A stretch of 17,466 nucleotides of DNA from Thermoplasmata archaeon (lineage in GTDB: Archaea; Thermoplasmatota; E2; UBA9212). The DNA lies in contig DUKC01000115.1 in the NCBI GenBank assembly GCA_013329495.1, positions 2,364-19,829 of the forward strand. Reading direction: 5' to 3'. This document shows, in pieces, positions 1 through 15,602 of the stretch. A program made the position numbers and the translations under genes. The notes beneath the pieces were generated by a model. That model had not been told where the DNA came from, made no database searches, and worked only from the letters and a program-made list of their open reading frames with translations. The stretch's first letter is position 1, and every line of letters starts with the position of its first letter.

Positions 1-3
1 CTA

Positions 4-22
4 AAAAACTAGGGGGTGCCAT
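4..22. repeat. Left copy of a 19-base inverted repeat
   Basis: The sequence aaaaactaggggg-tgccat here reappears as its reverse complement at 7225-7245. The only difference inside the match is the G run, five here and seven there. Such a match in 7 kb is unlikely by chance. It could be the edge of a small dispersed repeat, which would also explain why the contig starts here, or it could be an amplification artefact. No transposase gene is nearby. Confidence 0.5.
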
Positions 23-180
23 GTAAAACAAATCATCATTGTTAGCGTTCCCCCAGAATTGTTGAATATTATAACGAGAGAGGGGAAGCAGGTAAAATTT
101 AAAAGCTTTTATTCCTCATATCTTTCATGCACAAATCTTTACACTTATATTATGATAAGAAAAAAACTATGAGTGTATTT

Positions 181-672
181 ATGAGTTCCCTGAGTGATCA
201 ATTATTAAAGGCTGGTCTTGTAACTAAGGATCAGGTAAAAAAGGCTGCTGAGAAGCCGAAATTTATCAAAAAGAAAAGAAAAAACACAAAAAAGTCTAAA
301 GAAGAACCGTCTGATCTCGCAAATTTTTATCAGCAAAGAGCCAATGAAACTAATAAAGAGAAACAAGAAGCAGCTCGAATAAAGCAGGAAGCGGCTAGAA
401 TAAAGAAGCTAACAAATAAGAAAATTAATAAACTTATTACGGAGAATCTACTCAACGATGAGGCTGCAGAGATTCGCTATAATTTTGTAGTAGGAACTAC
501 AATTAAGTATTTATATGTAACTGAGCAACAGCAACAAGATTTAGCTGATGGCAAGCTCGCTATAACATTCTTAGGAGGAAAGCGCTCCATTATACCTATA
601 GATATTGGCCATGAAATCTTGAAAATTAACCCCGATAAAATTGTGGTTTCCATCGAGGATAAGTCTGATTAA
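181..672 (+). CDS. DUF2058 (YaiL-type) protein
   Basis: This is a highly charged cytoplasmic protein of the DUF2058 family, found in gammaproteobacteria and represented by YaiL of E. coli; its role is not settled. The opening MSSLSDQLLKAGLV is the usual N-terminus of the family, so I start at 181 rather than at the in-frame ATGs at 127 or 169; none has a strong ribosome binding site. A lysine-rich stretch and a Glu/Ala/Lys coiled-coil region with a tandem EAARIKQ repeat (about residues 60-75) follow. The C-terminal half is a compact domain with KYLYVTEQQQQDLADG and the ending typical of the family. It has no visible enzyme motif. It is separated by 122 bases from the TonB-like gene and is probably its own unit. 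Confidence 0.8.
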   Translation: MSSLSDQLLKAGLVTKDQVKKAAEKPKFIKKKRKNTKKSKEEPSDLANFYQQRANETNKEKQEAARIKQEAARIKKLTNKKINKLITENLLNDEAAEIRYNFVVGTTIKYLYVTEQQQQDLADGKLAITFLGGKRSIIPIDIGHEILKINPDKIVVSIEDKSD

Positions 673-725
673 GTTGTATTTTAGGGTCGTCATACAATCA
701 GATCGCAATATCTGTCTTGATGTGA

Positions 726-731
726 TATAAT
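726..731 (+). promoter_or_regulatory. Possible -10 box upstream of the TonB-like gene
   Basis: A perfect TATAAT lies in the 122-base gap before the TonB-like gene. I see no good -35 box 16-18 bases upstream (TCGCAA at 703-708 is poor), so this is a weak bacterial promoter call. It would serve the long gene block from 795 to 6617. Confidence 0.3.
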
Positions 732-794
732 TAGCTTAGCGGCGGGGTTCGCGGGCAAAACTAAACTAATATAAATACAATAATAAATCTGCTT

Positions 795-1679
795 ATGTCT
801 TCTACAGTAAAAAAAATCAGTAAATCTCCACTTTATTTCACAATACCTGCGTCATTGTTATTACATGCTGGTTTGTATTCAATGGGTATTCGACCACCTG
901 ACTTTCCGGAAGCTCCTCGAGCTCCAACTTTTGATGTGACAATGGTAATACCTCAAAATGTTGAAGCACCTGAGAAAGCAGACTTTATTGCCAATGCGAA
1001 CCAAGTTGGTAGCGGTAGTGAAGACAAGAAAAGTCGAATAAAAAGCCAGTTTGCATCAAACCAACAAAATTTTAATACGGGTGAAGATCTAGTCGATGCG
1101 GAAAAAAGTGTAGCTGAAATTACACCAAAACCAGAGCCGCAGATACTAACCACTAAAGGGAAGACAGATAAATTTGTAGATAAACTCCCAGAAGAAAAGC
1201 CACAAGAAGACCCTGTTACAACAGTAGTCAATAATTCTGAAAAAACTGAAGCGATAGCGCAGTTGATGGCAGAAATGAGCAAACAGGAAGAGCAGTTTGC
1301 TAGACGGCCTAGGATACATTTTGTTGATTCACTCAGCGCAAAAGGGAGCGAAGCAGCAGAATATATTTATAAGTGGTCTAAAAAACTTGAACGCATCGGG
1401 AATATTAACTTTCCGCAAAAAGCGTTGGACCTAAGTTTAAGTGGTACACTCATTTTAAATGCTACTATAGATAGAGCAGGTAGGTTAGTTGAAATACAAA
1501 TTGCCGTATCATCTGGCTCAAAAATTCTTGATGATGCAGCGATTAAAATTGTTAAATTAGCGGCACCATATGATCCACTATCTAAAGGAATACGGAAGAA
1601 GTACGACCAATTAAATATCACTCGAACCCTTGTTTTTCATAAATCTGAAGGTGAAGAGGCGGTATTCTCCTCAAATTAA
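795..1679 (+). CDS. TonB-family energy transducer-like protein
   Basis: This 294-residue protein has the TonB layout. A short cytoplasmic N-terminus leads to one membrane anchor (about residues 13-32), then a long Pro/Glu/Lys-rich periplasmic spacer, and a C-terminal TonB-like domain (about 205-280) containing SGTLILNATIDRAGRL and SSGSKILDDAAIKIV. TonB proteins carry proton-motive energy from ExbB/ExbD to outer-membrane receptors. No exbB, exbD or receptor gene is present here. Its position just before yqgE, ruvX, pyrR and pyrB matches Pseudomonas aeruginosa, where the TonB3 gene occupies this place and has been linked to twitching motility; I recall that from the literature and it is not shown by this sequence. 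It may serve pili or the cell envelope rather than iron uptake. The start at 795 puts the anchor at the normal distance from the N-terminus. Confidence 0.85.
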   Translation: MSSTVKKISKSPLYFTIPASLLLHAGLYSMGIRPPDFPEAPRAPTFDVTMVIPQNVEAPEKADFIANANQVGSGSEDKKSRIKSQFASNQQNFNTGEDLVDAEKSVAEITPKPEPQILTTKGKTDKFVDKLPEEKPQEDPVTTVVNNSEKTEAIAQLMAEMSKQEEQFARRPRIHFVDSLSAKGSEAAEYIYKWSKKLERIGNINFPQKALDLSLSGTLILNATIDRAGRLVEIQIAVSSGSKILDDAAIKIVKLAAPYDPLSKGIRKKYDQLNITRTLVFHKSEGEEAVFSSN

Positions 1680-1707
1680 CATACACTAGCGAGACCAACG
1701 CAACACC

Positions 1708-2289
1708 ATGGCAAGTGAAAATACAGACACGGAAAGTAGCTTTCTGCAAAGCCAGCTACTGATAGCAATGCCGAGTATGGGTGACCCTTACTTTGAGCAT
1801 TCTGTGACTTTAATTTGCCAGCATAATAATGATGGTTGCTTTGGGCTCACGATTAATAGACCAATTGAAATAACAATTGATGAGCTTTTTGACCAGCTCG
1901 ACATTCCAACGGAAGATTCTCTAGTAAAAGGTATACCTGCACTGAGAGGTGGTCCTGTTCAAATAGAGCAAGGCTTTATTATCCATGATACCGATAGACA
2001 ATGGGAAAACACACTAAGCATTTGTGATGATCTGGCGGTAACTGCCTCACGAGATATTTTATTTGATATTGCAAAAGGCGAAGGTCCTGATAATTTTTTA
2101 TTAACACTCGGCTGTGCAAGCTGGGCGCCAGGGCAGATGGAAGAAGAAATCATGAATAATTCATGGTTAAACTGTCCTGTGGATAAGCAAATAATATTTG
2201 ATACTCCCTATGAAAAGCGCTGGAAAGGCGCTGCTGATACATTAGGGTTTGATGTCAATATCATTAGTGATGTTGCTGGACACGATTGA
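1708..2289 (+). CDS. yqgE: YqgE/AlgH family protein (UPF0301)
   Basis: This 193-residue protein matches the YqgE/AlgH family along its whole length. It has the opening LLIAMPSMGDPYFEHSV, the ICQHNNDGCFGLTINRP block, GGPVQIEQGFIIHD, LLTLGCASWAPGQMEEEI, and the typical ending SDVAGHD. The family fold is known but its biochemical role is not; in Pseudomonas it was named AlgH for an effect on alginate regulation. It directly precedes ruvX, as in most gammaproteobacteria, with no gap between stop and next start. The ribosome binding site before 1708 is weak (a GAG about 17 bases upstream). Confidence 0.93.
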   Translation: MASENTDTESSFLQSQLLIAMPSMGDPYFEHSVTLICQHNNDGCFGLTINRPIEITIDELFDQLDIPTEDSLVKGIPALRGGPVQIEQGFIIHDTDRQWENTLSICDDLAVTASRDILFDIAKGEGPDNFLLTLGCASWAPGQMEEEIMNNSWLNCPVDKQIIFDTPYEKRWKGAADTLGFDVNIISDVAGHD

Positions 2290-2715
2290 TTGGCTACGGT
2301 TATAGCTTTTGATTTTGGGCTTAAACGCACTGGGGTTGCAGTTGGCAATACGCTAATGGGTAGCGCCTCGCCAGAATGTACGTTAATCGGTAAAGATGAG
2401 CAACCAGATTGGGAAGGCATCACCAGATTATTTAATGAATGGAAGCCAGCCCAGTTAGTCGTTGGGATGCCAACTGAACTAGATGGTAGCGAAAGCCCAC
2501 TAAAAAAACGGATTGAACGTTTTTGTAATCAGCTTCATGGTCGGTATCAGTTACCTGTTGATCAGGAAAATGAACAGTTTACATCTATAGAGGCAGCACA
2601 ACGATTAAAACAGTTACGCCAAAGTGGTCGTAAACAAAAAGTTACAAAAGAAGAAGTAGATAAAATAGCAGCAGCAATCATTTTAGAAAACTGGATGCAA
2701 AAAAACGGGCACTGA
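2290..2715 (+). CDS. ruvX: RuvX/YqgF Holliday-junction resolvase-like nuclease
   Basis: This is a 141-residue RNase H-fold protein of the RuvX/YqgF family, which acts on Holliday junctions and has been linked to 16S pre-rRNA 5' maturation. Three acidic residues fit the catalytic set: Asp8 in FDFGLKRTGVAVG, Glu95 in the NEQFTSIEA segment, and Asp124 in VDKIAAAIILENW. The family usually shows DER where this protein has NEQ, so the acidic residue is kept but its neighbours differ. GMPTELDG (59-66) is also conserved. The start is a TTG at 2290, directly after the yqgE stop, which gives a full-length N-terminus and implies translational coupling. Confidence 0.92.
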   Translation: MATVIAFDFGLKRTGVAVGNTLMGSASPECTLIGKDEQPDWEGITRLFNEWKPAQLVVGMPTELDGSESPLKKRIERFCNQLHGRYQLPVDQENEQFTSIEAAQRLKQLRQSGRKQKVTKEEVDKIAAAIILENWMQKNGH

Positions 2716-2737
2716 ACAAGTTAATGTGGGACAGAAT

Positions 2738-3274
2738 ATGAGCACGGTGATGAAACATCAAAATAATAATGAATATAATGTTGATGAACTATTAGATAGT
2801 ATGGCACATGAACTGCGTGAGCAATTTGGAAGTGCACTTGATGAAACAGTTATGGTGGGGATTCACTCTGCAGGTGTGTGGGTTGCTCAACGTCTTCATG
2901 ATTTACTTAAAATTAAAGAGCCACTAGGAAAGCTGAATATCAGCTTTTATCGAGATGACTTCAGCCGTATTGGCTTGCATCCGCAAATTAAACCATCAAA
3001 ACTTCCTTTTACGCTAGAAAATAAACATATCATTTTAGTAGATGATGTACTATATACAGGACGAACCATTAGAGCAGCGATGAATGAGCTGTTTGATTTT
3101 GGTCGACCCGCAAGCATAACTTTGGCAGTGTTAATCGACAGAGGCCATAGGGAGCTTCCAATAGAAGCGCAAGTTGTTGGTTTCAAAAGAGAGATGGAAG
3201 TTGATAGTTATTTTAAACTAACAAATGATGATAATAAGTTGGAATTAAGCATTATAAATCGTGAGCAAAACTAA
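2738..3274 (+). CDS. pyrR: PyrR-type bifunctional regulator/uracil phosphoribosyltransferase
   Basis: This 178-residue type I phosphoribosyltransferase has the PRPP-binding loop [10 protein letters not shown] at residues 101-110, and [13 protein letters not shown] and [12 protein letters not shown] upstream of it, as in PyrR. PyrR converts uracil and PRPP to UMP, and in Gram-positive bacteria also binds pyr mRNA; no attenuator is visible here, and in Pseudomonas-type genomes the regulatory role is unclear. I choose ATG 2738 because GTGGGA at 2726-2731 makes a ribosome binding site six bases upstream; a GTG start at 2726 is possible. The 3' end overlaps pyrB by 14 bases. Confidence 0.9.
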
Positions 3275-4292
3275 CTCACCAGAAAACCAAGGGAGAGAAA
3301 TCAATATAACTCCCGGCCCTTTGCCATCATCCATGCAACTCAATGCAGATGGCAAGCTTAAACATTTTCTGACAATTGAAGGTTTGCCACCTTTATTATT
3401 GGAAGAAATCCTTAATCGCGCAGATCAGTTTGTTTCTCTTCCCGGAAAAGCACAGGTTCAAGCACCATTGCTAAGAGGCAAAACGGTGATGAACTTATTC
3501 TTTGAAAATTCTACACGAACTAGAACTACATTTGAACTCGCTGCAAAAAGACTTTCTGCTGATCTCTTAAATCTCGATATACGCAATTCATCCGCAACTA
3601 AAGGCGAAAGTTTACTTGATACCATTCGCAATTTAGAAGCTATGGGTTGTGATATGTTTGTTGTTCGACACTCAAGTAGTGGTGCTGCACACTTTATCGC
3701 GCGTTATTGCGCACCACATATTAGCGTTATAAATGCCGGAGATGGAAAGCATGCTCATCCGACTCAGGCGATGCTGGATATGCTTACGATCCGCCAACAT
3801 AAAGGTGATTTCCCGCCACTTAAAGTTGCCATTGTAGGTGATATTAAACACTCTCGGGTGGCACGTTCCCTAATCCATGCTTTAACGACGCTATGTTGTG
3901 GAGAAATTCGAGTTATCTCACCAAAAACTTTAATGCCAGAAAGTATTGAGCAGATGGGTGTTAATGTGTATACAGATATTGAAAAAGGTGTTGTGGATGT
4001 TGATGTAGTGATCATGTTGCGCTTGCAACATGAGCGCATGAACTCTGCTCTTTTACCTTCAGTCAGAGAATATTATGCACGCTATGGTTTAACTGAAGAG
4101 CGCCTTGAACTGGCTAAACCTGATGCAATTGTCATGCACCCCGGCCCAGTAAACCGAGGTGTTGAAATTGATTCACGAGTAGCAGATGGACCACAGTCAG
4201 TTATTATGCAACAGGTAACCAATGGAGTTGCAGTACGTATGGCTGTTATGTCGATGGTGCTTGGCTCACAAGCAATGGTTGATGGGAGCTAA
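3261..4292 (+). CDS. pyrB: Aspartate carbamoyltransferase catalytic subunit
   Basis: PyrB joins carbamoyl phosphate and aspartate to make carbamoyl aspartate, the first committed step of pyrimidine synthesis, in the cytoplasm. The 343-residue protein has the carbamoyl-phosphate loop STRTRTT at 84-90, HPTQ at 166-169 and MHPGP at 292-296. The N-terminal extension of about 35 residues before [10 protein letters not shown] is typical of the Pseudomonas-type enzyme, which forms a large complex with an inactive dihydroorotase-like partner instead of using PyrI. That partner is the next gene, one base away. The start is a GTG inside the end of pyrR; the only ATG that would keep the core is at 3333 and has no ribosome binding site. 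Confidence 0.95.
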
Positions 4293-4293
4293 T

Positions 4294-5580
4294 ATGAGCA
4301 ACCATTCAACCCTCATCAAAGATGGCCGGATACTAGATCCGCAATCAGGCATTGATAAAGTTACTAATTTGGCTATCATGAAGGGCAAGATTATTGGCAT
4401 AGGTGAAGCTATACCTTCTAATTTTAAGCCTAAAAAAACCATCGATGCTAAAGATTTGTGGGTTTTACCCGGCATCGTTGATTTAAGCGCATATCTACGT
4501 GAACCCGGACAGGAAAATAAAACCAGAATCCCATTTGAAACTTATAGTGCGGCAAGTGCTGGAATAACCAGAATTTGTTGTATGCCAGAGGCAGATTCAC
4601 CAATTGATAGCGGCGCAACTGTAAAACTAATAAAAAGCAAAGCCAAGCAGGCTGGTTTTGCAAGAGTAAGTGTTATTGGCGCGCTAACGCAAAATCTTGC
4701 AGGTGAACAACTAAGTCATATGGGTAGCCTTAAATATGTTGGCTGCGTGGGCTTAAGTCAGGGGCATGAATCCATAAAAGACCTGGCAACCTTAAGAAAA
4801 GCGATGGAGTATGCCGCAACTTATGAGTTGCCATTATTTCTTCATCCTTTTGAGCATTCACTGATGGCACAGGGAGGCATGCATGAAGGTGCTCTCTCGA
4901 CTCGGTTAGGGTTACCTCCAATACCAGTTGCGGCGGAAACCGCTGCGATTGCACAAACACTGACTTTAGTGGAACAAACTCACACCCCAGTACACTTTTG
5001 TCGCCTTTCCACTGCTGACAGTGTAACAATGCTGACACAGGCAAAGCAAAGTGGCCTACCTGTAACAGCCGATGTGGCAGTTCATCAATTGTTTTTAACC
5101 GAAATGGATGTCAGCGAGTATAATCCACTTTGTCACACCATTCCTCCTCTGCGTTCAGAGAGAGATCGTGATGCATTGCGTGAAGCAGTTTCAAACGGGG
5201 TAATTGATGCAATTTGTTCAGATCACCAGCCCCATGAGATTGATGCAAAACTTGCGCCTTTTGAAGAAACTAGTCCGGGAATATCAGGTTTTGAAACCTT
5301 ACTTCCCTTGGCATTACGTTTAGTAGAAGAAAAATTAATTAGCCTTAGCCAAGCGATTTCTTACTTAACTCATCAGCCTGCCAAACTGGTTAATTTAAAA
5401 GCTGGCTCGCTAGAAACGGGGCACAGTGCTGATTTCAGTCTATTTGATCCCAATAATCTATGGCAACTGGATGTGAGTAAACTATTAAGTGAAGGTAAAA
5501 ACACACCTTTTTCAGGCTGGAGTTTTCAGGGGAAAACAGTAGAAACATTTATTAAAGGTAAAAGCGTCTTTAGCCTATGA
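4294..5580 (+). CDS. pyrX: Dihydroorotase-like protein lacking metal ligands (PyrC', PyrX)
   Basis: This 428-residue protein is an amidohydrolase-fold relative of dihydroorotase that is probably inactive. Active enzymes have HxH before LREPG to bind zinc; here residues 63-72 read DLSAYLREPG, so both histidines are replaced (Ser65, Tyr67). The later SDHQPHE segment near the C-terminal third is kept. In Pseudomonas the same inactive protein, encoded just after pyrB, is needed to assemble aspartate carbamoyltransferase, and a separate true dihydroorotase is made elsewhere; I infer the same here. ATG 4294 follows the pyrB stop by one base and has GGGAG five bases before it. In-frame codons upstream lie inside pyrB and give an unrelated N-terminus. 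Confidence 0.92.
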   Translation: MSNHSTLIKDGRILDPQSGIDKVTNLAIMKGKIIGIGEAIPSNFKPKKTIDAKDLWVLPGIVDLSAYLREPGQENKTRIPFETYSAASAGITRICCMPEADSPIDSGATVKLIKSKAKQAGFARVSVIGALTQNLAGEQLSHMGSLKYVGCVGLSQGHESIKDLATLRKAMEYAATYELPLFLHPFEHSLMAQGGMHEGALSTRLGLPPIPVAAETAAIAQTLTLVEQTHTPVHFCRLSTADSVTMLTQAKQSGLPVTADVAVHQLFLTEMDVSEYNPLCHTIPPLRSERDRDALREAVSNGVIDAICSDHQPHEIDAKLAPFEETSPGISGFETLLPLALRLVEEKLISLSQAISYLTHQPAKLVNLKAGSLETGHSADFSLFDPNNLWQLDVSKLLSEGKNTPFSGWSFQGKTVETFIKGKSVFSL

Positions 5581-6617
5581 GTTTATCGCGGATAGTAAAA
5601 GCTATGCTGGGTTTTTTCTGCCTGATTTCAACTTGTCATGGAAGCCCTTTAAAATCAGATGAAAGTGTTTTCTTTTTCCCCACATCCGCCAATCAGGATA
5701 AGAATTTAAAATGGAATATTCCCATTCATCACTGGGTCTTTGAAAAAGAAGAAGACGGCATAGGCAATATATTTACCCAAAAGGTTTTCTCTGAGATTGC
5801 TGAAACACTGGAGGTTACTGAGGAGCAAGCACATTCTGAGCTTTTTAGAAAACGTCTAGGATGGTTTCTGGTCGATAATGAACGCAATAAAAAAATAGAG
5901 ATTTGCCTTGAAAATAAACAAAAAGAACAATTAGAACTTACCTCTGCAAATGGTCACGCAACTACAGCGTTTACATTTGAAACAAAGGCTCAAGACTCTA
6001 CGTGGTTAAGCTATAAGGTACTCAAAGATGATCGTTTGTTTGAAGGCAAGGTACAATTAATTCCTAAAACTGGTTTAACGGTCATATCAGATATAGATGA
6101 CACAATTAAAGTCAGTGAAGTTCTGGATAAGAAAACGCTGATCAAAAATACCTTTCTTGAGCCTTTTAAAGCAACAGCTGGAATGCCTGAATATTATAAA
6201 AAGCTACAAGAGCAGGGTGCATATTTCCATTATGTTTCTGCATCTCCCTGGCAGCTATATCCCAGCCTGGAACTTTTTATGGAGGAAAACTACCCAGCAG
6301 GAACAGTATCCTTAAGAAACTTTCGTTTAAAAGATAGTAGCATTCTTAAATTTTTAAAATCTTCAGAAAATTATAAGACGGCACAAATTAGAAATATTAT
6401 ACAACGCTACCCAAAGCATCAGTTCATTCTAATAGGAGATAGTGGAGAGCACGACCCAGAAGTGTATGCTGCCATATACGAACAATTTCCAACAGCAATC
6501 AAGTCTATCCAGATTCGTGCTGTCACAAATTCTGATTTGAGTGATCAACGCTTTAATGCAACCTTTAAAGAGGTTCCCAAGAGAATTTGGAAGCTATTTT
6601 CCGAGCCTAATAAATAA
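5577..6617 (+). CDS. Exported App1-type (DUF2183) phosphatase
   Basis: This 346-residue protein contains the catalytic domain of the App1/DUF2183 family, HAD-like phosphatases; yeast App1 is a phosphatidate phosphatase. The nucleophile motif SDIDDTIK is at 171-178, followed by YVSASPWQLYP (219-229) and the acidic motif GDSGEHDPE (287-295). An N-terminal signal peptide ends near CHGSP (residues 20-24), so it probably acts in the periplasm; Cys20 could make it a lipoprotein, but the lipobox is poor. Its ATG overlaps the stop of the previous gene (ATGA), which ties it to the pyr block although no link to pyrimidines is obvious. The substrate could be a phospholipid; this is inferred from the family only. 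Confidence 0.85.
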   Translation: MSLSRIVKAMLGFFCLISTCHGSPLKSDESVFFFPTSANQDKNLKWNIPIHHWVFEKEEDGIGNIFTQKVFSEIAETLEVTEEQAHSELFRKRLGWFLVDNERNKKIEICLENKQKEQLELTSANGHATTAFTFETKAQDSTWLSYKVLKDDRLFEGKVQLIPKTGLTVISDIDDTIKVSEVLDKKTLIKNTFLEPFKATAGMPEYYKKLQEQGAYFHYVSASPWQLYPSLELFMEENYPAGTVSLRNFRLKDSSILKFLKSSENYKTAQIRNIIQRYPKHQFILIGDSGEHDPEVYAAIYEQFPTAIKSIQIRAVTNSDLSDQRFNATFKEVPKRIWKLFSEPNK

Positions 6618-6726
6618 ACCTAGAATCCTCGTTAGACAGGATAAGTGTGCTACTGTGGTGCGTGGCTAGGCGAAACTGTGTGGAATATTGTTGCACCATG
6701 CCAGCGCTCAACTGAGGACTTTAAGT
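6618..6726. other. Converging intergenic stretch with nested inverted repeats
   Basis: This gap lies between two genes that converge. TCCTCGTT (6626-6633) can pair with AACTGAGGA (6710-6718) with one bulge, and inside it TGGTGC (6656-6661) pairs exactly with GCACCA (6693-6698). It is richer in G and C than its neighbours. It lacks a T run, so a standard terminator is not shown. It may be a structured RNA end or a repeat. Confidence 0.25.
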
Positions 6727-6993
6727 TCAACTTACCGCTTTCTTAAGTGGGAATTGATGACCGTGCAGCATGAAATGCATGTGAACAAAAAGAGCATAGG
6801 CACGTCTTTCCCTATTCAATGAATGTGCATGGCGTTCAGCTTTATAAGCTTCAGCTCTACGAATATGATTGGCAACATACTGTTGTGTCTCTGCCAGATA
6901 TGCTGCTTCGCAGGACTTGGTATCACAAGCCGATGCATTAAATGAAAACATCACCGAGAATAATAAAAAAAAGCTGCTAATTAAACGACGCAT
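6727..6993 (-). CDS. Small exported protein of unknown function
   Basis: This 88-residue protein has a clear signal peptide: MRR, then a hydrophobic stretch (about 4-21) ending at NASA. The mature part starts with CDTKSCEAAYLAE, giving two cysteines four residues apart, and continues as a basic, His- and Arg-rich helix-like segment with HIRRAEAYKAERHAH. I do not recognise the family. GGAG lies five bases before the ATG on the minus strand, and TATAAAT just upstream of that could be a -10 box. It converges with the App1-type gene and so is transcribed alone. The ribosome binding site and signal peptide make it a likely real gene. Confidence 0.7.
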   Translation of the reverse strand: MRRLISSFFLLFSVMFSFNASACDTKSCEAAYLAETQQYVANHIRRAEAYKAERHAHSLNRERRAYALFVHMHFMLHGHQFPLKKAVS

Positions 6994-7166
6994 GGCTTAC
7001 TCCAAATATTTATATCAATTATTTTATTCGGCAGTATATTTTTCAGAATCTAATTAAAGTAGTCGCTTCAGATTTTCGGGGTATATAAGCAGATAATACT
7101 ATTCTGATGAGAATTGGCGGTAATATTTAGCTGATCAATGAATCCAGCCTGTTGAGCCATGCGTAT

Positions 7167-7185
7167 ACTGTAGGAAGACTACAGT
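7167..7185. other. Perfect 7-base hairpin
   Basis: ACTGTAG and CTACAGT flank the five-base loop GAAGA. It sits in the gap between the small exported protein and the thioredoxin gene, 40 bases before the inverted repeat. It has no T run after it, so it could be an operator or chance; no function is shown. Confidence 0.25.
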
Positions 7186-7224
7186 TCCAGAAAAACACTG
7201 TTGTGTAAAACGTAAAAAATCAAT

Positions 7225-7245
7225 ATGGCACCCCCCCTAGTTTTT
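7225..7245. repeat. Right copy of the inverted repeat
   Basis: ATGGCA, seven C, TAG and five T form the reverse complement of positions 4-22, with a two-base length difference in the C run. It lies 40 bases before the start of the thioredoxin gene. Together the two copies bracket almost the whole bacterial segment. Confidence 0.5.
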
Positions 7246-7284
7246 AATATCAGCTTTCAAGCAGGATGGAGACACATCATTAAA

Positions 7285-7890
7285 ATGAATAAATATATAC
7301 TTGCAACATTGATATCGTTATTTCTTTTTGTCTCATCGATATGGTCACTTGAAGATCCGAAAAAAAATGATTTGATTGCATGGCAGGAGTGGACTGCTGA
7401 ATCCTTCGCTAAAGCAAAGAAAGAAGACAAACTAGTGATTATGGATCTTGAAGCCGTCTGGTGTCACTGGTGCCATGTGATGGATGCAAAGACCTATCAT
7501 GACCCAAATGTAGCAGCATTGATTAATAAACACTTTGTACCAATTAGGGTTGATCAAGATGCGCACCCAGATATTTCTAATCGCTATGAAGAATATGGCT
7601 GGCCAGCTACCGTTGTTTTTGATGCGAATGGTAAAGAGATTGTAAAAAAGAGGGGCTATATTGGACCAAGGTTTATGGGCTGGTTTCTTGAGGCAGTGAT
7701 CGCTGACCCCAATCCAGAAGCACATGAAAACAAAAATATCGTTGTAACAACAGGCAGAAATGCTTTTTTGACAAAAGAACAAAAGCAGCTTCTAAATTCT
7801 CGCTATGAAGCAATCTATGATAAAAAGCATAAAGGTAAAGTGACACCAAAAGCTTTATTAAGGAATAGATATTTCCTTTTATCGGATTAA
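7285..7890 (+). CDS. Exported thioredoxin-fold (DUF255-like) protein, 3' end replaced
   Basis: The N-terminus is a signal peptide (about residues 1-21), followed by a thioredoxin fold with the CHWC redox motif at 60-63 and the cis-proline segment GWPATV at 106-111. It would be a periplasmic disulphide or redox protein. ATG 7285 is chosen because it begins the signal peptide and has GGATGGAG upstream; an in-frame ATG at 7225 is inside the inverted repeat. After residue 184 (YDKKHKG) the text turns into KVTPKALLRNRYFLLSD and stops. Relatives that I recall carry on after this point with a WGTVHK-like segment and a long C-terminal part. I think the true gene is cut at about 7837, and the last 17 residues are read from archaeal promoter DNA. 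Confidence 0.75.
   Translation: MNKYILATLISLFLFVSSIWSLEDPKKNDLIAWQEWTAESFAKAKKEDKLVIMDLEAVWCHWCHVMDAKTYHDPNVAALINKHFVPIRVDQDAHPDISNRYEEYGWPATVVFDANGKEIVKKRGYIGPRFMGWFLEAVIADPNPEAHENKNIVVTTGRNAFLTKEQKQLLNSRYEAIYDKKHKGKVTPKALLRNRYFLLSD
7848..7861 (+). promoter_or_regulatory. Archaeal-type BRE and TATA box for the Yip1 gene
   Basis: AAAAGC (7848-7853) followed by TTTATTAA (7854-7861) fits an archaeal BRE plus TATA box. Transcription would start near 7883, about 20 bases before ATG 7904. It lies inside the apparent 3' end of the thioredoxin frame, which supports placing the DNA switch upstream of it. Confidence 0.45.
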
Positions 7891-7903
7891 TTTCGGATAG
7901 GTA

Positions 7904-8527
7904 ATGAAAATGAAAGGAATAGATATAAAAGGTCTTATAAATCAAGTTAAAAACCTTCTGATGAAACCGAAGGATGCTTTGGCAGAAGCAAGAGATGTTC
8001 GTCCAGCCATGAAGGACTTGATCGTGTATCTTGCAATAGTTGCAGTGCCTACGTTGATAGGCATCCTAGTCGGTTACGGTCTGGTAGGTTATGGAACGTT
8101 TAGGGTATATGCCAGAATGCCAATTGGATGGGCCGTTGGATGGGCGCTCTTTCAATATATTTTCTCGATCATTGGCATCATAATCTTTGCTTATGTTGTA
8201 AATGCACTGGCGCCAAGCTTTTCGTCAAAGAAGGATCAAATTCAGGCAACGAAGCTTGCTGTTTACACCGCAACGCCATGGCTAGTGGCTGGAATTCTCT
8301 TCATATTCCCGCCAATTTCTTTTCTAGTTCTCTTGGCAGGACTCTATGGAGTGTACATTATGTATCTGGGCTTACCGGTGCTTATGGAGACGCCTGAGAA
8401 TAGAAAAATCGCATATCTAGTAGTATCCCTCATAGTGTTCATCGTCGTTATGTGGGTAGTTGGCCAAGTCTCGACGGCGGTAATGCAAAGTGCAATGGGT
8501 GTAGGATATCATTTCGCATTCTATTGA
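7904..8527 (+). CDS. Yip1-family membrane protein (archaeal type)
   Basis: This 207-residue protein resembles the prokaryotic Yip1 domain family. A basic amphipathic N-terminus with GLINQVKNLLMKPKDALAEA (about residues 10-29) is followed by five likely membrane segments, near 38-58, 75-105, 120-140, 145-157 and 167-187. The opening with KNLLMKPKDALAEAR and the phrase YTATPWLVAGILFIFPPI are characteristic. Its function in archaea is unknown; it sits in the cell membrane. GGATAGG lies just before ATG 7904, and another in-frame ATG is at 7910. It is the first gene in the window that looks archaeal. Confidence 0.8.
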   Translation: MKMKGIDIKGLINQVKNLLMKPKDALAEARDVRPAMKDLIVYLAIVAVPTLIGILVGYGLVGYGTFRVYARMPIGWAVGWALFQYIFSIIGIIIFAYVVNALAPSFSSKKDQIQATKLAVYTATPWLVAGILFIFPPISFLVLLAGLYGVYIMYLGLPVLMETPENRKIAYLVVSLIVFIVVMWVVGQVSTAVMQSAMGVGYHFAFY

Positions 8528-9184
8528 GGCCAAAGAATCTAGGAAAATACCCTTTGGTTTGGTTGCAACAAATACCTTCTAGCTTGTAGCTAGCACATTA
8601 GTATAATTCAAACACCTCCCTTTTATACTATTTATGCACTGATACATATTTTGGATGGCTTTATGGACTGGAGTAACTGAGCCTGCCAGTGTGCATGTAG
8701 AACGCCCAAAGACAAAAGAATCTTCTTTGTAGTGTTGGTTGCGGAACATTCAGCAATTATCGGCATAGTCACGTGAATTGCAAGTGAGGCAACAGAGACC
8801 CTTCGGCCTATCTGTATAGACCACGACGTAACGTATATTCAGCGACCCAAGGGCGAGCAACCCTCCCTTCTTTTCTAAAGGCTCAACATGAGACAAGAGA
8901 AAGTTCAGATGGCAAGGATATCTATAACAAATTTTTGTGTTTGGGTTTTTGTTGTACCTAATGTTTAATGGTGTACTCTCCAAATTGGTTATCAGATTTG
9001 AAAACTCTCATCCCAGCCTTACAGTCATGTTGCTGTATTATTTTTTAAAGATATTCAATATAGCTTTTTAAATCACAAGGATTTTAAAACACCTACAGTC
9101 TTTACCTCTTAAGGCACTTCACTAAAAGGGTGAAAACAAAGATGGGTTAAAAAATAAAAACTTAAGAATTAAGAAGGAGGAACC
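8528..9184. other. 657-base gap without a convincing gene; possible decayed coding remnant
   Basis: I found no RNA gene or complete protein. At 8655-8732 a plus-strand frame of 25 residues opens MALWTGVTEPASVHVERPKT with no ribosome binding site. At 8777-8875 a 33-codon open stretch is followed, after one TAA, by another 29 codons in the same frame beginning RLNMRQEKVQMARIS. These read like a decayed protein tail, perhaps from a mobile element, but I cannot name it. The minus strand is open over 8750-8983, which I take as a shadow. The last 60 bases are A-rich and include the ribosome binding site of the next gene. Confidence 0.35.
8530..8557 (+). terminator. Possible hairpin after the Yip1 gene
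   Basis: CCAAAG (8530-8535) pairs exactly with CTTTGG (8552-8557) across a 16-base loop, three bases after the Yip1 stop, followed by TTTGGTT. A second small palindrome, CTAGC-TTGTA-GCTAG, is at 8579-8593. Archaea do not need hairpins to end transcripts, so the call is weak. Confidence 0.25.
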
Positions 9185-9739
9185 ATGCAAATAAAAAATG
9201 CTGTGAAAGAATCTCTTCCGTTCCTCATTCTCTGCGGGCTCGGGGAGATTTTTGCGGGAAGCATTTTTGGAAGTATGCATTCCTTCATGGAATCGATACC
9301 CTCCCTGATTGTGCTAATACCTCCCATAATCGGACTTAGAGGAAACATAAACGCAACGCTTGGATCCCGGCTGACTTCCGCAGCCCATATGGGATTAATA
9401 GACTTCAAAACCTTGGGTAACGATGAGTTAAAAGAAAACATAAAATCTTCCCTAATCTTGAGTTTCCTGATGTCCGTATTTGCTGGCGTGCTGGCCCACT
9501 CAACAACCTTGATGCTTGGCTTGCAGTCAGCAGGAATTTTAAAGCTCGTAGGCATAGCCTTGCTCGCGGGAACCACTTCCGGAGTTCTGTTGGCCTTTCT
9601 AACTCTGTTCATTGTTTCTTTCTCCTTCAAACGAGGATGGGACCCTGACAACATCACAGGTCCTGCTCTCTCGACTCTTGGAGATATATTTACAATGCTT
9701 TGTATTTTTGGCAGTGCTCTGCTGATTGGAGGTATGTAA
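9185..9739 (+). CDS. MgtE-like divalent cation transporter half, first copy
   Basis: This 184-residue membrane protein matches the transmembrane domain of the MgtE/SLC41 family (PF01769) but lacks the bacterial cytoplasmic N and CBS domains. The pore-type motif IPPIIGLRGNINATLGSRL spans about 45-63. The DPDNITGPALSTLGD motif (153-167) corresponds to the DPA..GP..TT..D signature whose aspartates bind Mg2+ in MgtE. It has about five membrane segments. Family members need a dimer, so it may pair with the next gene product. GGAGG at 9176-9180, four bases before the ATG, fixes the start. It is the first gene of a four-gene operon; the substrate is probably Mg2+ or another divalent cation. Confidence 0.85.
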   Translation: MQIKNAVKESLPFLILCGLGEIFAGSIFGSMHSFMESIPSLIVLIPPIIGLRGNINATLGSRLTSAAHMGLIDFKTLGNDELKENIKSSLILSFLMSVFAGVLAHSTTLMLGLQSAGILKLVGIALLAGTTSGVLLAFLTLFIVSFSFKRGWDPDNITGPALSTLGDIFTMLCIFGSALLIGGM

Positions 9740-9741
9740 GA

Positions 9742-10299
9742 ATGCACCCCACCCTAAAGAGAATACTAAAGGAGTCAATCCCCCTCCTCTCCATCTGTCT
9801 AATTCTCGGGACAGTTGGTGGACAACTGCTGAATGCAAGGTTAGAACACTTATCACTCCTCCCTGTATTCCTGGTGTTTGTACCTGTAATAAATGGGGTC
9901 GGTGGAAATTTAGGGTGCGTACTCGGAGCAAGAGTCTCATCTGGTTTACACCTCGGCACAATCCAACCAAAACTAAAAGGAAAGGAACTTAAGCAAAACA
10001 TTTTGGTTTACTTTTTACTAGGCATAATTACTTATACAACAATCAGCATATTTATTTGGATAGGGATCCCCTTGCTTGGAATTAGAACTGATCTATCCTT
10101 CATGAAGTTTAGCGGAGTTTTGTTGTTTGCTGGAGGACTGCTGGTCTGTTTAGTAGTTTTGCTGGTCCTATCCACCGCTTTTGTATCCTTCAAGAAGGGT
10201 CTCGATCCCGACAACACTGTGCTCCCCCTGGTTACGTCCGTGACCGATTTGGCCGGAATTTCTTGTCTGATCCTTGCCATGGGGGTGATTGGTCTATGA
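9742..10299 (+). CDS. MgtE-like divalent cation transporter half, second copy
   Basis: This 185-residue protein is a second copy of the same domain, and clearly diverged from the first. It has VPVINGVGGNLGCVLGARV (about 47-65) and DPDNTVLPLVTSVTDLAG (155-172) in the places of the conserved pore and cation-site motifs. Five hydrophobic segments are visible. The start at 9742 follows a perfect GGAGGT (9728-9733) with an eight-base spacer. The first copy ends two bases before it. The pair probably forms a heterodimer equivalent to one bacterial MgtE dimer pore. The stop overlaps the next start (ATGA). Confidence 0.85.
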   Translation: MHPTLKRILKESIPLLSICLILGTVGGQLLNARLEHLSLLPVFLVFVPVINGVGGNLGCVLGARVSSGLHLGTIQPKLKGKELKQNILVYFLLGIITYTTISIFIWIGIPLLGIRTDLSFMKFSGVLLFAGGLLVCLVVLLVLSTAFVSFKKGLDPDNTVLPLVTSVTDLAGISCLILAMGVIGL

Positions 10300-10949
10300 T
10301 AAAAGGAATAGCAAGGCTAAAGAAACGGCTTCCAAGATGGAAAAAGGCAGAATTCGAAGCCGTTCGATACGTTCCAACCAACGTCAAGGCGTTGTTAACC
10401 GAGATGAAGGACATAAGCGAAATCATAGTTGATCTTGCATATTCAGCCGCTTTATACAAGAATAGAGAGATCGCAGAAGAAGTTAAATATCTAGAAGTGA
10501 GAATGGACAAGCTGAACTACCAGATAAGAATGATTGCCATGTTGGCGGCGAGGGATCCTCAAGATGCAGAGCAACTGGCTGGAGTTTTGCAAATAGCAGA
10601 GGCCGCCGAATCGATCTCAAATGCGGCAGGTGATATTGCTTCTCTAGTCTATTCCGCTGAGGCCACCGAACCCGTCTTTTCTTACATAATGGAAAGATCA
10701 ATAGAAAAGATAGGCCGAATGATAGTCAGTCCCAACTCAAAGGCCTGCGGCATTTCTCTAGACGAGCTGGAAATAGAGCTTAAGACAGGTTGCAAAGCCA
10801 TCGCAATACGGAGAGGGGAAACTTGGATTTACGACCCAGACGAAACTACAAAAATATTGGAAAAAGACTCCTTGCTAGTTGTAGGCCCCAAGGAGGGATT
10901 AAAGAAATTGAGGTCATTCTTGAAGGGAGAGAAGGAGCTGCTTGAATGA
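10296..10949 (+). CDS. PhoU-like/TrkA-C regulatory protein, first copy
   Basis: This is a 217-residue cytoplasmic protein with two domains. Residues about 28-130 form a PhoU-like helical bundle with DISEIIVDLAYSAALYKNRE and an AEAAESISNAAGDIASLVYS helix. Residues about 145-212 form a TrkA-C (RCK_C) ligand-binding domain with TGCKAIAIRRGETWIYDPDE and EKDSLLVVGP. TrkA-C domains bind small ligands and gate transporters, so this protein likely controls the MgtE-like pair just upstream. The start at 10296 overlaps the previous stop and has GGGGGTGAT at 10281-10289. A TTG at 10263 would lengthen it without need. Confidence 0.85.
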   Translation: MIKGIARLKKRLPRWKKAEFEAVRYVPTNVKALLTEMKDISEIIVDLAYSAALYKNREIAEEVKYLEVRMDKLNYQIRMIAMLAARDPQDAEQLAGVLQIAEAAESISNAAGDIASLVYSAEATEPVFSYIMERSIEKIGRMIVSPNSKACGISLDELEIELKTGCKAIAIRRGETWIYDPDETTKILEKDSLLVVGPKEGLKKLRSFLKGEKELLE

Positions 10950-11518
10950 AAAGCGAAGAGGGCTTGCTCGAATTAAAGGAAAAAACAGAACTCATGGTTG
11001 ATCTGGCCTATTCGGCCATAATATACGACAACGTCAAGCTCGCTAAGGAAGTTTATGAGCTCGAAGAGTTTATAGATGAAAAAAACAAGGAAATACAAAA
11101 AACCATAATGGAAGAAATTGAAAGAAGAGAAATAGATACCGATAAAGCTCTTGTTCTTTCGAGGTTAGCTCGTTCAACCGAAGCCATTGCTGATGGTGCG
11201 CTTGAACTTGCAGATGTTGAGTTGAGAGACGTGGAACTCCATCCCATAATAAAGGAGAGCGTCAGAGAGTCAGACACGACCTTCACTAGGGTTACAGTAA
11301 ACAACTCCTCTGTCTTTGCTGGAAGAAAGCTGTCAGAGCTCAGATTGGCTAGCAAAACTGGTATGATGGTCATTGCGATAAGAAGAGAAAAAGAGTGGGT
11401 ATGCGGGCCAAAAGGAGACTTTCAGATAGAAAAAGGAGACGTTTTACTAGCAAAAGGTCCGGCAGAAGCAGAAATGGATTTTATAAAGTTGGCAAGAGGA
11501 AAGAAGAGGAAAATTTGA
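10946..11518 (+). CDS. PhoU-like/TrkA-C regulatory protein, second copy
   Basis: This 190-residue protein is a shorter paralogue of the previous gene with the same order of domains. The PhoU-like helices contain KTELMVDLAYSAIIYDNVK (13-31) and RSTEAIADGALELADVE (about 76-92). The TrkA-C domain (about 115-185) contains GRKLSELRLASKTGMMVIAI and EKGDVLLAKGP. The two paralogues probably pair, one for each transporter half. ATGA overlap with the previous gene indicates coupled translation. It ends the operon; a T run follows at 11606. Which ligand it senses cannot be told from the sequence. Confidence 0.85.
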   Translation: MKSEEGLLELKEKTELMVDLAYSAIIYDNVKLAKEVYELEEFIDEKNKEIQKTIMEEIERREIDTDKALVLSRLARSTEAIADGALELADVELRDVELHPIIKESVRESDTTFTRVTVNNSSVFAGRKLSELRLASKTGMMVIAIRREKEWVCGPKGDFQIEKGDVLLAKGPAEAEMDFIKLARGKKRKI

Positions 11519-11648: not shown

Positions 11649-13325
11649 ATGAATTCTGTATGGGTTGCTCTTGTTGGAATATCGGCGTTGCTGCTCGGTT
11701 ACTTTTTTTATGGAAGATTTATCGAGAGACGAATAGCTAAACCAGATGACCGTATCGCAACTCCTGCCCATAAGCTAGAAGACGGGTTGGATTACTCCCC
11801 AGCAAAGCGCATAGCCCTCTTTGGCCATCACTTTTCTTCAATCGCTGGTGCAGGTCCCATCCTTGGTCCAGTGGCTGCTGCAATAGCTTTTGGATGGGCT
11901 GGTTGTTGGATTTGGATTGTGCTAGGGGGAATACTCATTGGGGCAGTGCATGACTATCTTGCCCTGATGATTTCTACAAGGCATAAAGGAAGATCCCTGC
12001 CTGACATTTCTGGAGAAGTACTGAGTCCAATGTCAAGATACCTTTTTTTAGCATTTGTTTGGATTACCTTGGTGCTTGTGATTGCAGTCTTTGGTAGAAC
12101 TGCTGCTAGTGCCTTAACTTCCACTCCCCAGGTGGTTATCCCAGTACTCTGCTTAATCCCCATTGCAATCCTTTTTGGTTTGCTTGAGAATAAAGTAAAG
12201 ATGAATTTTTGGCTGGCAACTCTCATAGCTCTGTCCCTCATGGTTGGCGCTCTCGTTCTCGGGCTCTTCTTTCCAATTTCTCTTCCCGTGGGTCCTGGTC
12301 AAGCCATTCTAATTTGGTTCACAGTCCTTATGATCTACAGTCTGTTTGCATCTGTCCTACCCGTATGGCTCTTACTTCGACCTAGGGATTATCTTAGCAT
12401 CTACATGCTTTTTGCATGTTTAGTACTCGGTTATGCGGGTCTTTTTGCTTCCCATGCTCCAATCTCAGCCCCTGCATATGCTGGGTTTAAAAGTGCAACT
12501 CATGGCCCGATATGGCCAATGCTTTGCATAACCATTGCTTGTGGCGCCATATCTGGCTTTCATTCTATTTGTGCAGGAGGAACCACTTCCAAACAACTAA
12601 ACAAAGAAAGCGATGCTAAGCCAATCGGTTTTGGCTCCATGATTTTAGAATCAATTTTGGCCATCCTAGCATTGCTTGCTGTGACAGCAGGTTTATACTG
12701 GAAAGCCCCCTCGGGAATGGAAGAGTTCAGCTTTCCCTATTTCATGGAGTCTGGAGGTGGAGGCTGGATAGCTGCTTTTGGTACGGGTTACGGCAGATTT
12801 CTTGAAGCGCTAGGCATACCACTTGCCCTAGGAATCACACTAGGAATCTTGACTGTCCAACAATTTGTCATAACCTCTCTCGACACTTGCACAAGACTAG
12901 AAAGGTACATAGGAACTGAGATGGTGGGCAAGAAATTCCCCATACTAAGGAACAAATGGGTTATAACTCTCATCCCCATTTCAGTAGCTTATTATCTTGG
13001 GTTCACCTCGGCATATGAATGGGTGTGGCCCCTGTTTGGTTCAGCCAATCAGTTAGTTGCTGCTTTGACCTTGCTTGTAATATCCTCATGGTTAGCAAGC
13101 TTAAAGAGAACGACGCTCTATACACTGATTCCATGCATATTCATGTTGTGCACTACCATAGGGGCTCTACTCTGGCAAATACCCACTAATCTTTCTCAAG
13201 GAAACCCTCAGCTCAGCGCGATTGGTGTAGTGTTGGTTGGCTTAGCCTGCATTCTTGTGAGAGAAGCAGTTAAGCAAGCAAGAAGGATGAAAAGCGAGAA
13301 GAGGACCCCAGTCAATTCTCCCTAA
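11649..13325 (+). CDS. cstA: CstA-family transporter (peptide or pyruvate uptake)
   Basis: This 558-residue membrane protein belongs to the CstA family. The signature FGHHFSSIAGAGPILGP is at 58-74, followed by AIAFGWAGCWIWIVLGG and HDYLALMISTRHKG (101-114). About 13-15 membrane segments are visible. E. coli relatives CstA and BtsT take up peptides and pyruvate; the bacterial protein is about 700 residues, and this shorter form lacks part of the C-terminal region. It is followed by a 2-oxoacid:ferredoxin oxidoreductase operon on the same strand after 278 bases with its own promoter, so pyruvate import is an attractive but unproven role. The upstream sequence TTTTTGCTGTAAAAGA has no ribosome binding site. 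Confidence 0.88.
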   Translation: MNSVWVALVGISALLLGYFFYGRFIERRIAKPDDRIATPAHKLEDGLDYSPAKRIALFGHHFSSIAGAGPILGPVAAAIAFGWAGCWIWIVLGGILIGAVHDYLALMISTRHKGRSLPDISGEVLSPMSRYLFLAFVWITLVLVIAVFGRTAASALTSTPQVVIPVLCLIPIAILFGLLENKVKMNFWLATLIALSLMVGALVLGLFFPISLPVGPGQAILIWFTVLMIYSLFASVLPVWLLLRPRDYLSIYMLFACLVLGYAGLFASHAPISAPAYAGFKSATHGPIWPMLCITIACGAISGFHSICAGGTTSKQLNKESDAKPIGFGSMILESILAILALLAVTAGLYWKAPSGMEEFSFPYFMESGGGGWIAAFGTGYGRFLEALGIPLALGITLGILTVQQFVITSLDTCTRLERYIGTEMVGKKFPILRNKWVITLIPISVAYYLGFTSAYEWVWPLFGSANQLVAALTLLVISSWLASLKRTTLYTLIPCIFMLCTTIGALLWQIPTNLSQGNPQLSAIGVVLVGLACILVREAVKQARRMKSEKRTPVNSP

Positions 13326-13603: not shown

Positions 13604-14179
13604 ATGGCGTTTTTATTAGAAATTAGACTCCATGGGAGAGGGGGTCAAGGAGCTGTTACGGCTGCAAACTTGCTCGCAGTAGCCGCTCTTAGATCTGGCA
13701 ATAAAGACGCTCAGGCATCCCCCTTCTTTGGAGCGGAGAGGAGAGGTGCGCCCGTAAAAGCATTCGCAAGAATATCAAGCGAGGAGATCAATCTAAGATC
13801 TCAGATTTATAACCCTGACTTGGTGATCGTTCTTGATCAGCATCTCTTGGACCTCGTTGATGTCACCGAAGGGTTAAAGAAAGGTGGCACGCTGCTAATC
13901 AACACGAAAAAAAGGCCAGCTGAAATAGTATCCTATTTTCCAAACACAATTAGAGTTGCGACAGTTGATGCGACAGGACTCGCTCTCAAGTACGAGATTA
14001 AGGTTGGAGGGATCCCAGTTGTGAATACTGCAATTCTCGGGGCCATTCCTAAAGTGACCTCAGCAATAAAGATTGAAAAGATAATAGAGGTAATCAAGGG
14101 AAGGTTCCCTGGAGAAAGTGGAGACAAAAATGCCAAAGCGGCCCGAGACGCATTCGGGATGACTGAGGTGAGTCCATGA
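13604..14179 (+). CDS. porG: 2-Oxoacid:ferredoxin oxidoreductase gamma subunit
   Basis: This 191-residue protein is the gamma subunit of the pyruvate/2-oxoacid:ferredoxin oxidoreductase family. It shows GRGGQGAVTAANLLA (11-25) and FFGAERRGAPVKAFARIS (41-58), the two blocks that define it. The gamma subunit completes the enzyme that turns a 2-oxoacid and CoA into acyl-CoA, CO2 and reduced ferredoxin in the cytoplasm. It is the first gene of a gamma-delta-alpha-beta operon, the usual order in hyperthermophilic archaea. GGTGAGG five bases before the ATG supports the start. It overlaps porD by four bases (ATGA). Confidence 0.93.
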   Translation: MAFLLEIRLHGRGGQGAVTAANLLAVAALRSGNKDAQASPFFGAERRGAPVKAFARISSEEINLRSQIYNPDLVIVLDQHLLDLVDVTEGLKKGGTLLINTKKRPAEIVSYFPNTIRVATVDATGLALKYEIKVGGIPVVNTAILGAIPKVTSAIKIEKIIEVIKGRFPGESGDKNAKAARDAFGMTEVSP

Positions 14180-14433
14180 GAGAGATATTCACGACCATTT
14201 CTCGCCCCGTAAAAGGAGCGACGGAAAAGACCGGGCAATGGAGAACATTTAAACCCCTGCTTGATAAAAAGAAATGCACCAGATGCTTGAGGTGCTGGAT
14301 ACTCTGTCCAGATGGAGCAATCCAGCGAAATGAAGATGAATCGGTCGAAATAAACCTGGAATACTGCAAAGGTTGTGGAATCTGTGCGAATGAGTGCCCT
14401 GTAAAGGCAATAAGGATGGTGAGAGAGGAATGA
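14176..14433 (+). CDS. porD: 2-Oxoacid:ferredoxin oxidoreductase delta subunit (two 4Fe-4S clusters)
   Basis: This 85-residue ferredoxin-like subunit passes electrons from the catalytic subunits to external ferredoxin. Eight cysteines form two classic cluster motifs: CTRCLRCWILCP (34, 37, 40, 44) and CKGCGICANECP (64, 67, 70, 74). The N-terminus (MREIFTTISRPVKGATEKTG) is the short lead typical of delta subunits. It overlaps porG before it and porA after it, both as ATGA. Confidence 0.93.
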   Translation: MREIFTTISRPVKGATEKTGQWRTFKPLLDKKKCTRCLRCWILCPDGAIQRNEDESVEINLEYCKGCGICANECPVKAIRMVREE

Positions 14434-15602
14434 AGTTGATTATGGATACCGCAAATCATATCGCTGGAGAGGCAGCAAAAGCTGCAAGAGCAGAGGTTGT
14501 AGCTGCCTATCCGATAACTCCTCAGACCACAGTCGTCGAGTACATCCAGAAGTTAATCTCGAATGGTGAGTTCGATGCGGATTTTATCTGCGTCGAATCC
14601 GAACATTCGGCAATGGCAGCTACAATTGGGGCGAGCGCAACTGGAGTAAGGACCTTCACCGCAACCTCCTCTCACGGATTGTTGTACATGCACGAGATGC
14701 TGCATTGGGCAGCGTTGGCGAGGTTACCAATAGTTATGGTAAACATTAACCGAACAATTGGTCCTGGCTGGAACATCTGGGCAGACCATCAAGATTCAAT
14801 GGCTCAAAGAGACACGGGCTGGCTCCAGTTTCATTGTGGATCAAATCAAGAGGTTTTTGACACAGTCATCCAGTCCTATAAGATAGCTGAGGCCGAAGAG
14901 ATCCAACTGCCTATAATGGTAAACTTCGATGCCTTTATTCTTTCCCACACCTCGATGCCGGTTTCAATTCCAGACCAGCCTGTGATAGACAAATTTTTGC
15001 CAAAAAGGAAACCAGTTTGGAAGCTCGACTCCTCCGATCCCCTAACCCACGGAAACATAATCCCACCTGACCCCTATCTGGAAATTAGGAAGTCGATGCA
15101 GGAATCTCAAGATAAGGCAAGGGATTTAATAAGAACCACAGCCGAGGAGTGGAAGAAACTAACGGGTTTCTGGCACGGAGGAACGGTAGAGGAATACAGG
15201 GCCGAGGATGCCGATCTTGTGGTGTTGGCAATGGGAACCCTGGGGTCAGAAGCAAAGGTAGCAGTCGACAGGCTGAGAAAGGAAAGAATAAAAGCAGGGG
15301 TATTTAGAATAAGGTCGTTTAGGCCGTTTCCAATCGATGAGATTAAAAAACTTTCGGAAGAGACTAAGCTCGTGGTTGTCGACAAGGCCCTTTCCTTTGG
15401 AGGGGAGGGGGTGCTCTACAGCGAGGTAAAATCCGCATTGTATGGGAGAAAAAACGAAATCTTTGGTTGGATTGCAGGCCTGGGAGGAAAGGACGTGAGC
15501 TGGCAGGATCTAGTTCAGATGGTTAAGGCAGTTAAGGATGGAAAAGCAAAACCGGTCAATTGGCAAAAAGGAGGTAAAGGTGCCATTACGGGATTTATCT
15601 AA
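14430..15602 (+). CDS. porA: 2-Oxoacid:ferredoxin oxidoreductase alpha subunit
   Basis: This 390-residue subunit has the YPITPQTTVVEYI block (27-39), ESEHSAMAATIGASATGVRT (56-75), TSSHGLLYMHEMLHWAA (79-95) and WADHQDSMAQRDTGW (117-131) of the family's alpha chain. It binds the thiamine cofactor together with the beta subunit. Where many pyruvate enzymes have ALSAPLSIWNDHQD, this one has TIGPGWNIWADHQD, and TSSHG instead of TSSQG or TASQG. The substrate could therefore be pyruvate or another 2-oxoacid such as 2-oxoisovalerate; the gene symbol is provisional. ATG 14430 overlaps the porD stop and has GAGAGAGGA upstream; a longer reading from 14394 would lie inside porD. Confidence 0.9.
   Translation: MKLIMDTANHIAGEAAKAARAEVVAAYPITPQTTVVEYIQKLISNGEFDADFICVESEHSAMAATIGASATGVRTFTATSSHGLLYMHEMLHWAALARLPIVMVNINRTIGPGWNIWADHQDSMAQRDTGWLQFHCGSNQEVFDTVIQSYKIAEAEEIQLPIMVNFDAFILSHTSMPVSIPDQPVIDKFLPKRKPVWKLDSSDPLTHGNIIPPDPYLEIRKSMQESQDKARDLIRTTAEEWKKLTGFWHGGTVEEYRAEDADLVVLAMGTLGSEAKVAVDRLRKERIKAGVFRIRSFRPFPIDEIKKLSEETKLVVVDKALSFGGEGVLYSEVKSALYGRKNEIFGWIAGLGGKDVSWQDLVQMVKAVKDGKAKPVNWQKGGKGAITGFI

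Follow-up and report, generated by a model that had tools for sequence, protein, structure and literature searches.

The contig analyzed here has two origins, a part of about 10.2 kb from a Cocleimonas-like sulfur bacterium left of a join and an archaeal part of about 9.6 kb right of it, and the bacterial part ends inside a thioredoxin-fold gene. With a probability of roughly 94%, it is a chimeric metagenome assembly in which a Cocleimonas-like and a Thermoplasmata-type fragment were combined and binned with the archaeon.

The analyzed stretch of 17,466 nucleotides (hereafter the window; all positions refer to it) corresponds to bases 2364-19829 of contig C145, which is 19,829 bases long, so that the right end of the window is the contig end. 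The left block extends 2363 bases beyond the window, up to the left end of the contig. The assembly (G000) is a draft of 1.49 Mb in 216 contigs with a completeness of 81.9% and a contamination of 2.8%. It is archaeal: rRNA genes of archaeal type (16S and 23S), with a tRNA gene in between, were found on its contig C63.

The following features were identified:
Far left end of the contig, outside the window: penicillin-binding transpeptidase (PF00905)
1..7836, no strand: Cocleimonas-like (Thiotrichaceae) block (collinear with the Cocleimonas sp. locus L038; 4-mers and codon usage nearest Cocleimonas; sole PF00905 match of the assembly)
175..6617, plus strand: DUF2058, TonB-like, YqgE, RuvX, PyrR, PyrB, PyrC and APP1 phosphatase genes (family matches; Cocleimonas order)
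6727..6993, minus strand: small ORF of 88 aa (same position in Cocleimonas L038, 68% identity over 66 aa)
7285..7836, plus strand: 5′ part (184 codons) of a long-form Thioredox_DsbH/DUF255 gene (PF03190, E 4.9e-28; alignment)
7837..7890, plus strand: 17 unrelated codons and a stop codon (family fit no better than shuffled tails)
7837..7903, no strand: join interval (family match stops at 7836; archaeal gene begins at 7904)
7904..8527, plus strand: Yip1-domain membrane protein of archaeal type (PF04893; class distribution; tree)
9185..11518, plus strand: pair of MgtE half-transporters and two PhoU-TrkA_C proteins (family matches)
11649..13325, plus strand: CstA carbon-starvation family protein (PF02554)
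13604..16482, plus strand: 2-oxoacid:ferredoxin oxidoreductase genes (gamma, ferredoxin, alpha, beta; family matches)

A bacterial and an archaeal half in one contig

Nine left genes, from DUF2058 to APP1 together with the small minus-strand ORF, are arranged in the same order in the Cocleimonas sp. locus L038, with protein identities of 55-88%. When the left PyrB was compared with contigs of named genomes, the best of the 80 loci listed were a Cocleimonas sp. contig (88%) and the contig of a Thiotrichaceae MAG (87%). For the 88-aa ORF, searches of Pfam and NCBIfam gave zero matches, and the thioredoxin gene is absent from the corresponding place in L038. The transpeptidase gene is the single PF00905 match in the whole assembly; among 14 control genomes, 10 gave a match to this family, and none of these 10 is one of the four that we take to be archaea. 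The original prediction that every left gene is gammaproteobacterial holds for nine genes by collinearity and for the transpeptidase by family only, and not gene by gene throughout.

The left block is an ordinary piece of bacterial chromosome. It appears to duplicate functions that the MAG has elsewhere: two additional genes of the OTCace family, located on different contigs of the assembly, share 36% and 32% identity with the left PyrB. A protein resembling PyrC, also encoded elsewhere in the assembly, is 27% identical to the left PyrC.

On the right side, 8 of the 80 genomes in the archaeal class were found to carry Yip1; one of them is the genome studied here, and the proteins of the other seven are 43-48% identical. 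A further Yip1 with 94% identity (P0121) lies on a contig of 2,026 bases. Among the 63 genomes of the Cocleimonas family (the family of genome G080), one distant match was detected (23% identity). In a tree of 62 rows, the window Yip1 and all seven other class relatives fall into a group of 26 rows, 18 of them without an organism name, with a support of 100/100. This group is separate from the proteins named as gammaproteobacterial and gemmatimonad. The sequence comparison thus gives a good archaeal placement for Yip1, though not by close species, and the predicted archaeal Yip1 gene after the join is supported by both tree and class matches.

The first MgtE is related to proteins of 55 of the 79 class genomes, its own among them, with identities of up to 59%. 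For PorB, 120 of 7003 hits were listed, of which 12 carry an organism name, and all 12 belong to Thermoplasmata-type archaea. We take the class of the right block to be Thermoplasmata-type because of these named PorB relatives. Yip1, the first MgtE and PorB were placed by their relatives, in line with the archaeal origin predicted for the right genes. The second MgtE, the PhoU-TrkA_C pair, CstA, the other Por genes and an RNase-H-like ORF were placed only through pooled codon usage and composition, where the pooled codon usage omits the RNase-H-like ORF and the small ferredoxin.

Some further properties of the right block were observed. Between Yip1 and MgtE, about 650 bases (8528-9184) contain no evident gene, and the part from 8638 to 9137 scored +0.4 nats in the composition model described below. 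The MgtE pair (9185-10299) consists of two adjacent half-size proteins. Within the class, MgtE is mostly found as two open frames of about 185-215 aa in families f1 and f2, and mostly as a single frame of approximately 400-450 aa containing both halves in families f5, f8, f9 and f10. The transporter is accordingly split or fused in a lineage-specific way. Two consecutive PhoU plus TrkA_C proteins (10296-11518) follow on the same strand and perhaps form one operon with the MgtE pair, in which they would act as a transporter regulator. A second, diverged set of Por gamma, ferredoxin, alpha and beta genes lies on assembly contig C80 (locus L010) and is 43-56% identical to 13604-16482.

Codon usage separates the two halves. 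The distance of the left part was 0.146 to Cocleimonas and 0.387 to the MAG; that of the right part was 0.144 to the MAG and 0.383 to Cocleimonas. The share of AGA and AGG among the arginine codons was 0.31 on the left (Cocleimonas 0.30) and 0.84 on the right (MAG 0.77). In a fourth-order Markov model, in which positive values are MAG-like, the left part scored −13.7 and the right part +27.3 nats per kb. Of 43 other contigs of the assembly that were sampled, all 40 readable ones were MAG-like in this model. With plain 4-mers, the left block was nearest to Cocleimonas, and all 21 sampled contigs of at least 5 kb were closer to the right than to the left part. The TETRA z-score correlations with the MAG sample were 0.516 (left) and 0.520 (right) and did not separate the halves. 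A difference in tetranucleotide usage was seen with plain 4-mers, alongside codon usage, and not with TETRA. Taken together, gene relatives, codon usage and composition bear out the proposed split into a bacterial left and an archaeal right side.

The cut thioredoxin gene and the place of the join

The frame starting with ATG at 7285 contains the WCHWC motif together with the thioredoxin-fold domain of PF03190. In an alignment of 15 family sequences, it is collinear with its family up to the glycine of YDKKHKG (residue 184, codon GGT at 7834-7836) and diverges afterwards, exactly as had been predicted. The following 17 residues were described as unrelated to the family, and this proved correct. 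Their mean BLOSUM62 sum in the same columns was −20.8 against the homologs, compared to +38.3 for the family members among each other. Shuffled tails had a mean of −18.5, and 1229 out of 2000 equaled or exceeded the real tail. For this scoring, 40 of the 119 listed homologs were used, namely those with the anchor motif and 17 residues beyond it.

In the Cocleimonas family, 26 of the 63 genomes match the thioredoxin at an E-value of 1e-15 or better and five at 1e-30 or better, the best value being 1.4e-47. Two of these five (G097 and G099) encode intact long-form proteins of 530 and 523 aa. In tblastn searches against the contig, these matched with their residues 10-169 and 20-158, respectively. 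Both alignments end near position 7722, and the match up to 7836 rests on closer homologs. For the C-terminal part of the long forms, nothing better than E 3.4 was found on the contig apart from the matches of the thioredoxin part.

Since the window frame continues into the long-form linker beyond the thioredoxin domain, it is considered a long form that has been cut. It resembles other Thioredox_DsbH (DUF255, PF03190) proteins in the thioredoxin-fold N-terminal part with WCHWC, but differs from the long form in lacking about 340 C-terminal residues. Relatives of the thioredoxin were also seen in 13 of 40 other genomes belonging to the archaeal class, where the best E-value was 6.8e-28, and none were found in the viral contigs searched.

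In an alternative without any switch of organism, the thioredoxin beside a native Yip1 would be naturally short, frameshifted or naturally truncated. This draws on three of the five nearest Cocleimonas-family relatives, which occupy frames of 175-186 aa between stops, and on the short DUF255 proteins that are common among the listed homologs (125-332 aa, a length limited by the search). It is already largely contradicted and can practically be dismissed. The three short relatives carry a WCxFCKK motif and end directly behind their thioredoxin domain, but the window frame enters the linker of the long WCHWC form. For the missing remainder of the long forms, none of the contig's reading frames offers a credible match, and a frameshift was rejected for this reason. 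The flanks also differ in nearest genomes and composition.

With the match to the bacterial family reaching as far as 7836 and the archaeal Yip1 beginning at 7904, the join is placed between 7837 and 7903. This interval is probably the archaeal leader of Yip1. The predicted switch of organism within the truncated gene is thereby upheld at its proposed position. A join further to the right, between Yip1 and MgtE, was considered since the composition of 8528-9184 is undecided. It was rejected on account of the grouping of Yip1 with its class relatives and of the one distant match in the Cocleimonas family.

The best single change point by composition was 7634, which is about 200 bases left of the family break. 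Change points within 3 nats of the best were found between 7567 and 7972, although not at every position, and the family break itself scored about 3.5 nats below the best. The region 7837-9184 is weakly archaeal in composition (+7.2 nats per kb). The change-point model misclassified 15 of 321 Cocleimonas blocks and 36 of 577 MAG blocks; 15 of the latter stem from three contigs of the sample that consist entirely of N. Composition is in agreement with the join and cannot alone place it.

An archaeal BRE/TATA box had also been proposed near the join. The pattern AA[AG]..TTTAT, which was picked after inspection of the window, precedes 6 of 117 MAG genes compared to a mean of 1.2 after shuffling. 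This is weak evidence and is compatible with an archaeal promoter at this position.

The surroundings of the join were searched for other signals. No direct or inverted repeats of at least 14 bases were reported within 7400-8400, and sigma-70-like and terminator-like sites in 6900-9300 occurred at chance level. The region 7000-9200 matched no phage record, and no second copy of it was matched in the assembly at the search sensitivity used. The window contains no tRNA gene, and its Rfam scan at gathering scores yielded nothing. Integrase or transposase domains were absent from the 20 window proteins scanned. The join is spanned by no close relative of either parent with which a short sequence shared by both might be shown.

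Origin of the join

By far the simplest interpretation is that the archaeal MAG contains a chimeric contig produced by misassembly. It is favored because an ordinary block of bacterial chromosome, with no repeats of at least 14 bases reported at its boundary and no mobile domains among the 20 proteins scanned, appears to duplicate functions of the MAG and ends within a gene. The nearest organisms differ between the flanks, with Cocleimonas on the left and the archaeal MAG and its class on the right. Composition and codon usage change at the join, which composition places to about 7567-7972; TETRA did not show the change. The assembler would have joined the bacterial piece of about 10.2 kb to the archaeal piece of about 9.6 kb within bases 7837-7903, and the product would then have been binned with the archaeon. 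In that case, the bacterial thioredoxin gene would be cut merely because the join happened to land inside it. We infer that the join was made by the assembler and not by a cell.

Several observations count against a chimera. These are the relative rarity of misassemblies compared to mis-binning, the lack of a demonstrated k-mer common to both parents at the join, the off-set change point, the weakly archaeal composition of 7837-9184, the TETRA result, the missing thioredoxin gene at the corresponding place in L038, the thioredoxin relatives in the archaeal class and the short stand-alone thioredoxins in three Cocleimonas-family genomes.

In the GUNC publication, a chimeric contig is defined as fragments of different sources that were wrongly assembled into one, and misassemblies are described there as relatively rare compared to mis-binning (PMC8201837). 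The contig studied here is similar to this type in that fragments of two sources are found in one MAG contig; in the present case, the sources belong to two domains of life and a gene is interrupted at the join.

Searches for the same arrangement in other genomes bear on whether the join is real. According to the original prediction, a second genome with the thioredoxin-Yip1 neighborhood would indicate a genuine arrangement, and such a genome was not encountered. None of seven archaeal Yip1 neighborhoods (13-18 kb each) contained the thioredoxin. Among 40 other class genomes searched with both proteins, none had both, 13 had a relative of the thioredoxin and three had Yip1. These searches covered class genomes, with no close strains of either parent among them.

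Inter-domain lateral gene transfer into archaea is a known system. A real and very recent transfer, by which the archaeon acquired at least 10 kb of a Cocleimonas-like chromosome broken inside the thioredoxin gene, would be consistent with a continuous contig that is part of an archaeal assembly and with bacterial genes on an archaeal-binned contig. It is nevertheless very unlikely. Unlike known transfers, the contig carries a whole collinear block of housekeeping and cell-wall genes whose order and codon usage are bacterial, which repeats functions that the MAG appears to have already and ends in a gene. Furthermore, neither the same arrangement elsewhere nor a mobile-element signature at the boundary was found, as the scan of 20 proteins revealed no mobile-gene domain and repeats close to the join were not reported. 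The acquired piece would include cell-wall and pyrimidine genes, and an insertion of these into a Thermoplasmata-type archaeal chromosome is equally improbable.

The opposite direction, in which a Cocleimonas-like genome gained a fragment of archaeal DNA that caused the contig to be placed in the archaeal bin, is extremely improbable. The left part of the contig is indeed a normal region of a Cocleimonas-type chromosome, but the right half fits the sampled archaeal MAG contigs in codon usage and 4-mers, and the 63 Cocleimonas-family genomes provide just one distant Yip1 match.

Consequences for gene assignment

Under misassembly, the window is most likely an artifact to be split and no biological discovery. 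If the join were real, it would represent a striking recent transfer between domains. The hybrid protein of 201 aa (7285-7890) is already present in the protein collection as P0001, and the artifact may spread in databases. The advice to split the contig before any gene is assigned to an organism is sound, and its genes should then be assigned anew. Otherwise, the genes left of 7837, among them those for the peptidoglycan transpeptidase, the TonB-like protein and PyrR, would be misattributed to the archaeon.
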